DNA from: Bacillota bacterium
GTDB taxonomy: Bacteria > Bacillota > Sulfobacillia > Sulfobacillales > Sulfobacillaceae
Direction: 5' to 3'
Length of the DNA stretch: 44,021 nucleotides
Assembly (NCBI GenBank): GCA_021795465.1
Contig: JAJYPK010000010.1
Span: 1-44,021 of the forward strand
Shown piece after piece: positions 5,434 through 31,413 of this stretch (positions are counted from its first letter, which is position 1; each line of letters begins with the position of its first letter). The notes under the pieces were generated by a model. The model was not told the DNA's origin, made no database searches, and was given only the letters and a program-made list of their open reading frames with translations. The translations under genes were made by a program, and so were the position numbers.

Positions 5434-6477
5434 CTAATTGGTCACAATCAGGTTGGGGGACGAGGACGAGACGACCTCACCAATCGCATACAGAGAAAGG
5501 CCCCGCTCGGAAAAACTCCTTTCGACTCGTTGTACGTCTTTCGCAGCCACGGTGAACAGAAGGCCGCCCGACGTTACGGCATCGGCACAAAGCTTCACCT
5601 GTGCGCTGTCGACATTGACGGTCTTAAGATGCGGTCGCACATAATCCAGATTGCGGCGACTGCCAGCAGGGAACTTATCGGCTTGGGCCAGGTTAAGGGA
5701 TCCGGGTAGCAAGGGGACCCGTGCGGTTCTGATGTGAAAACTCGTTCTGGACCCAGACGCCATTTCCCACGCGTGTCCTAAGAGGCCAAATCCCGTAACA
5801 TCCGTAGCTGCAGTCGGTTGACAGGCGACCTCGATGGCTTCTTTGGCTTGGCGATTGGAGGTTATCATCATCTCGATGGCCGGGTCGATGACGTGGGAGT
5901 CCTGAACGCCATCTTTGATGGCTTTAATAATCACGCCAGTACCGATCGCTTTGGTTAAGAACAGGATGTCCCCAGGCTTGGCGGTGCTATTGCGCCAAAT
6001 CTTATCGGGATGGACGGTTCCCGTCACAGCATAGCCCATTTTGGGCTCCGGGTCGTCGATGGAATGACCTCCTAAGAGCGCCGTTCCAGCCTGCCGCAAA
6101 ACCGATTCCCCACCCTTTAGCATGTGCCCAATGACATCGGGACTTAATATCCCATCGGGGATGGCTAATAGGTTCAATGCGGTCAATGGGGTTGCCCCCA
6201 TGGCGTAGATGTCGGACAGCGAATTCGTCGCGACAATTTGGCCAAAAATATAAGGATCGTCTACGACAGGAGTCATGAAGTCGACCGTCTGAACCAGAGC
6301 CTCGTTAGAATTCAAGCGAAACACCCCAGCATCATCGAGCGTTTCGGTGCCGACTAAGATCCGAGAATCCGATTCGGTTTGGGGCATTAAAAATTTGAGT
6401 GCGGCGGATAGGTCCTCCGGACCTAATTTGCACCCTCAGCCGGATTTTTGGGTCATTTCGGTAAGACGTTTTGCCAT
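5434..6477 (-). CDS. selD: selenide, water dikinase, a selenoprotein (in-frame UGA)
   Basis: SelD makes selenophosphate from selenide and ATP for selenocysteine and selenouridine synthesis. A plain ORF starts only at 6387 and lacks the catalytic N-terminus. Reading upstream in the same frame gives MAKRLTEMTQKSG, then TGA at 6438-6436, then GCKLGPEDLS running into the ORF. This matches the family's G-C/U-G-C-K motif exactly, so TGA encodes Sec14, followed by Cys16 and the essential Lys17. With the ATG at 6477, preceded by GGAGAG at a good distance, the protein is 347 residues, the standard SelD length. A hairpin fitting a bacterial SECIS follows the TGA. The ATP-binding LLGGHSIDD and the C-terminal TDVTGFGLLGHAWEM are intact. 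Automatic annotation would probably call a truncated protein from 6387. selA, selB and selC are not in this window. Confidence 0.93.
6409..6438 (-). promoter_or_regulatory. UGA selenocysteine codon with bacterial SECIS-like hairpin
   Basis: On the minus strand the TGA (6438-6436) is followed by 10 bases and then a perfect 7-bp stem TAGGTCC/GGACCTA (6425-6419 and 6415-6409) closed by the loop GGA. Bacterial SECIS elements are short hairpins roughly 10-11 bases after UGA with G residues in the apical loop, where SelB binds. Spacing and loop agree; the fold has not been computed. Confidence 0.7.
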
Positions 6478-30955: not shown

Positions 30956-31312
30956 CTAGTGACTGCAAGCATTTGCTGCACCGGACTCATCTTTGGTCCG
31001 GAATGAATTCCCACATCCGCACGCAGACACCGCGTTGGGGTTGTTGATTGAAAACCCACCCCCCATGAGGGAGTTCACATAGTCGACCTCGATGCCGTCA
31101 AGGTAAGGGGCACTATTGGGATCGATCACGACTTGAATGTCGCCGAACCGGAATAAGTTGTCCGTGTCTTGCGGCGCATCTAAAGCCATCCCATAACTAA
31201 AGCCACTGCATCCACCCTTGCTAATGTAAATGCGAAGGGCTAGATCTTCACGGTCCTTAGAGGCCATGAACTCCTTCACTTTGTCCGCAGCCGAATCAGT
31301 AAGCGTAACCAA
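30956..31312 (-). CDS. A-type iron-sulfur cluster carrier (IscA/ErpA family)
   Basis: These proteins carry and deliver [Fe-S] clusters to apo-enzymes. The 118-residue product begins MVTLTDSAADKVKEF from a TTG start, 11 bases after AGGAGG; the GTG at 31324 overlaps that site. The three ligand cysteines are Cys35 (GGCSGFSYGM), Cys98 and Cys100 (ACGCGNSF), spaced as in IscA. A short C-terminal tail adds a fourth Cys (ANACSH), which is unusual. No isc or suf genes are nearby. Confidence 0.9.
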   Translation of the reverse strand: MVTLTDSAADKVKEFMASKDREDLALRIYISKGGCSGFSYGMALDAPQDTDNLFRFGDIQVVIDPNSAPYLDGIEVDYVNSLMGGGFSINNPNAVSACGCGNSFRTKDESGAANACSH

Positions 31313-31413
31313 TCTTAGGACCACCTCCTTTGCGCATAGAATGAAACTTAGGTTACCCTATTATACGATAATATTCCTACTTTTCAAGATGTCGAGGGGG
31401 CCTCGCGATAATC

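Follow-up and report, generated by a model that had tools for sequence, protein, structure and literature searches.

The selD locus and its reading frame

The stretch of DNA analysed here (the window, 44,021 nucleotides of one contig from a member of the Sulfobacillaceae) carries on its minus strand, at 5434-6477, the gene selD for selenide, water dikinase (selenophosphate synthetase), which begins with an ATG at 6477-6475, ends with a TAG at 5436-5434 and spans 347 residues when an in-frame UGA at 6438-6436 is read as codon 14, the predicted selenocysteine (Sec). On translation of the minus strand, the readthrough frame reads MAKRLTEMTQKSG, then the TGA, then GCKLGPEDL and onwards. Under translation table 11 only a 317-residue frame is obtained, from an internal ATG at 6387-6385, and it is devoid of the catalytic N-terminus, as the original prediction had stated; its further claims, that readthrough restores the 347 residues with G-U-G-C-K in register and that a ribosome site precedes the ATG at 6477, are likewise borne out, the latter by a Shine-Dalgarno-like GGAG at 6490-6487, 9 nt 5' of the start codon.

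The readthrough product matches the family model TIGR00476 over its full length (E 4.4e-107, 357.9 bits against a cut-off of 125) and comprises an AIRS and an AIRS_C domain. The closest solved structures are 2yye (E 2e-71) and 3u0o (E 5e-67), which we take to be the SelD proteins of Aquifex aeolicus and Escherichia coli, respectively. In the alignment, the motif KSG-U-GCK places the UGA in register with the catalytic Cys17 of E. coli SelD, while K17, D49, D66, D89 and D226 are aligned with 3u0o and invariant in 16/16 aligned sequences of the class (Sulfobacillia); in the E. coli enzyme, Lys20, Asp51, Asp68, Asp91 and Asp227 presumably serve in ATP and Mg binding. At the very start of the window, on the plus strand (1-71) and upstream of dnaX, lies the 3' part of a bacterial small SRP RNA (Rfam RF00169), cut by the window start.

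Conservation of the UGA codon

SelD was found above threshold in 37 of 46 genomes of the class. Each of these 37 genes contains exactly one TGA, always at the identical position, in KSG-U-GCK or a variant of it (one sequence, L056, was placed by alignment, as GUAAK); neither TGC nor TGT was seen at the Sec14 codon among the class relatives read. This pattern bears directly on the view that the TGA is a nonsense mutation or an error of sequencing or assembly, selD being then a pseudogene or a misread Cys gene. Such a view would fit a gene that is broken under table 11 in an assembly as fragmented as this one (252 contigs), but the same TGA recurs in all 37 genes, from separate genomes and down to about 44% identity, the rest of the selD frame is intact and conserved, and the hairpin that follows is under selection (see below). 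It is thus extremely improbable, and was rejected on account of the conservation of the TGA across the class.

Alternatively, translation might start at the internal ATG 6387, giving a 317-residue protein that lacks the catalytic loop and might be an SPS1-like non-synthetase, and this is indeed the open frame that table 11 offers. However, a Met is present there in only 3 of the 37 class members, while L5, T6, G13, Sec14, K17 and P20, all upstream of it, are invariant in the 16 aligned sequences; moreover, the source genome has a complete Sec machinery, and the search of it yielded a single SelD locus. Given the rarely conserved Met and the invariant upstream residues, the internal start was rejected as very improbable.

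The nearest named relative is the SelD of Sulfobacillus benefaciens AMDSBA1 (58% identity), which is the same protein as that of a genome of the window's family (G038); the family therefore includes this Sulfobacillus. Among 79 SelD genes read outside the class, 54 have TGA and 25 have TGC or TGT, and in the SelD tree the Cys forms fall into several separate groups, mainly Paenibacillaceae and part of Bacillaceae, a mixed-phylum group, and some Lachnospiraceae. No sign of a mobile origin of SelD emerged, the plasmid and phage collections yielding only homologues under 60% identity.

Two genomes of the class, G003 and G012, are without SelD, yield no SelB or tRNA-Sec match that passes the family cut-offs and show no formate dehydrogenase match, so that the whole Sec trait looks to have been lost in them. 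A third, G006, of the same family as the window, has SelB above the cut-off (3.6e-98), but SelD and a formate dehydrogenase match are missing and no tRNA-Sec reaches its cut-off; either its assembly has a gap, or its Sec system is part-way through loss.

A SECIS hairpin under selection

Ten nucleotides, GGGUGCAAAU, separate the UGA from a hairpin at 6425-6409 (minus strand), in which a perfect 7-bp stem, UAGGUCC paired with GGACCUA, encloses the apical loop GGA (6418-6416), the presumed contact of SelB. The 7-bp hairpin had already been noted at just this distance, as expected of a bacterial SECIS. For the segment 6440-6390 the folding energy is -18.2 kcal/mol, with a z of -2.4 relative to dinucleotide shuffles, and only 11 of the 1305 TGA triplets of the window, counted on both strands and in all frames, precede a similarly placed, perfect 7-bp hairpin. 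Considering that the UGA matches the register of the SelD catalytic site and is conserved class-wide, a chance origin of UGA and hairpin together is untenable. In the bSECISearch model, the apical loop contains G and lies some 16-37 nt past the UGA; that of selD, at +18 to +20, falls inside this range, its synonymous sites are under selection, and nearly all class members have a GGN-containing loop. An Rfam scan of the window returned no SECIS family match to the hairpin.

The constraint on the RNA was separated from that on the protein by reshuffling synonymous codons within the same gene and refolding the 45 nt after the Sec or Cys codon. The mean z is -1.79 in the Sec genes of the class (37 genes), -1.49 in Sec genes of other bacteria (n=55, two of which repeat class sequences) and 0.01 in Cys genes (n=25); Sec and Cys genes differ with a p of about 1e-5, a value that ignores shared ancestry. 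The window hairpin has seven stem pairs, of which a mean of 6.35 are formed in the class, 5.0 in the other Sec genes and 3.6 in the Cys genes. Natural Sec genes of both groups fold better than their shuffled versions, the hairpin being kept there through the choice among synonymous codons, and Cys homologues do not.

Classical covariation is limited, and the RNA argument is therefore carried by the synonymous-codon test. Stem pair 14-24, which is G-C in 27 class genes, G-U in 6 and C-G in 2, is the one pair with a compensatory swap, the C-G form arising from a joint change of Gly19 to Ala and Asp22 to Glu; the remaining pairs are mostly invariant or vary on one side. Constraint is weak, with z near 0, in four relatives (L018, L034, L037 and L053), and in another (L055) the hairpin is without the standard register. 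In 7 of the 37 genomes (L023, L024, L025, L026, L028, L035 and L036), the best simple stem is shifted downstream by about one codon, its loop still being GGA or GGA-containing, which fits with SelB recognising a GG-bearing loop with some freedom in its distance from the UGA.

Sec machinery and other predicted selenoproteins

The source genome is a 3.58-Mb draft of 252 contigs, listed as 100% complete. The original prediction, which expected selA, selB and selC as well as further selenoproteins in it, is upheld on both counts. A tRNA-Sec on contig 135 scores 71.9 bits, the gathering score being 47, and ARAGORN reports it as tRNA-SeC with anticodon tca (UCA); SelB, on contig 184, has 631 aa and includes a SelB beta-barrel domain as well as SECIS-binding SelB winged-helix domains; SelA, on contig 84, scores 549 bits. 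Together with selD, the four selenium genes occupy four separate contigs, the window itself containing no tRNA.

These genes also bear on the proposal that the UGA is read as Trp or by non-specific readthrough. TGA terminates 12 of the 37 main genes of the window, in which TGG occurs 197 times, and is internal in selD only, exactly at the Sec/Cys position of the protein; with TGA in use as a stop and tRNA-Sec present in the genome, this proposal was rejected as vanishingly improbable.

Other genes of Sec type were sought by named families. The alpha subunit of formate dehydrogenase (FdhA; L064, contig C217:2954-4840) has a Sec-like UGA in SCNRT-U-HAPSV, followed by a hairpin with the loop GGUCU, also found in the hairpin of E. 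coli fdhF. The peroxiredoxin PrxU (L069, contig C207) has a UGA at the peroxidatic position, LAWTPV-U-TNEM. A third candidate (L155, contig C130:18175-18483) is a membrane-anchored AhpC/TSA (TlpA-like) protein that ends at the contig edge, with the UxxC motif YETDT-U-SAC and the hairpin CAACU-GGUCG-AGUUG after the TGA; since the same UxxC is present in four relatives from another family (L156-L159), it is probably a thioredoxin-like selenoprotein. As regards a second use of SelD, selenouridine is not evident, since no match to YbbB/SelU (2-selenouridine synthase) above the cut-off was obtained in the source genome.

Two side observations may be added. In a genome of the same genus (G001), the FdhA homologue (C35:40866-42785) has two in-frame TGA codons. 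In the window, a HesB/ErpA-like protein encoded at 30956-31324 on the minus strand is of the Cys form; other bacteria are known to have HesB-like proteins with Sec.

Relation to known systems

Sec-SelD/SPS2 occurs, for instance, in Haemophilus influenzae, Clostridium and Aquifex aeolicus. In many species SelD contains Sec (PMC4561486), the distribution of its Sec form in bacteria has been described (PMC4561486, PMC1794560), and among bacterial selenoproteins none are more widespread than SelD and FdhA (PMC1794560; PMC13188914). The window's gene resembles these bacterial forms in the UGA at the catalytic N-terminal position, the AIRS/AIRS_C fold, the SECIS hairpin directly downstream and the presence of selA, selB and selC in the genome; there is no substantial difference, save that it represents a divergent lineage conserved class-wide. 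Cys SelD proteins (E. coli, Paenibacillaceae and part of Bacillaceae) share the same enzyme fold and the GxGCK loop, but have TGC or TGT in place of the UGA and show no selection on a hairpin (25 homologues).

That Sec-containing SelD is known from other organisms had been noted beforehand, and it is in fact common in Bacillota generally. Selenoprotein use had also been regarded as little described in this group; this does not hold, for Sec-containing formate dehydrogenases have been published for all Sulfobacillus genomes studied (PMC4378227), and a Sec peroxiredoxin, PrxU, features in the proteomics of Sulfobacillus thermotolerans (PMC7409299). These publications, identified by a search of a partial library for papers on Sulfobacillus and selenocysteine, deal with formate dehydrogenase and PrxU and not with SelD.

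Proposed mechanism

The product of selD is almost certainly a Sec-containing selenophosphate synthetase, the UGA at codon 14 being decoded as Sec by SelB at the hairpin. SelB and Sec-tRNA-Sec, bound to the hairpin past codon 14, would insert Sec at the UGA and so yield the 347-residue SelD. Judging from characterised homologues of SelD, Sec14 may handle selenide in a mobile N-terminal loop, and the AIRS-type ATP site (Lys17, Asp49, Asp66, Asp89, Asp226) would make selenophosphate, which SelA would in turn use to convert Ser-tRNA-Sec into Sec-tRNA-Sec. An autocatalytic loop would thus be formed, in which SelD is at the same time a supplier and a consumer of the 21st amino acid, and the yield of SelD should on this account depend on selenium.

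It is conceivable, though unlikely, that the early UGA and the hairpin also form a switch that senses selenium and autoregulates the Sec system as a whole, and that the class also records a SECIS moving along the gene. In the absence of selenium, such a switch would let translation stop after 13 residues, and SelD would not be renewed; the class would then be a natural record of SECIS shifting, with 7/37 hairpins displaced downstream and the G-C to C-G swap in two genomes.

Significance

To sum up, the Sec reading of selD, as judged from the genomes compared here, is almost certainly correct and is strongly supported, and Sec-SelD is a known and widespread kind of gene in bacteria. Standard annotation would yield a 317-residue SelD without its active site, an error that the present finding corrects. 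The comparison of Sec with Cys genes provides a clean test of selection on the hairpin separate from that on the protein. The organism is marked as a selenocysteine user, and every SelD found in this class of acidophiles would be a selenoprotein, Cys versions being common elsewhere in Bacillota.
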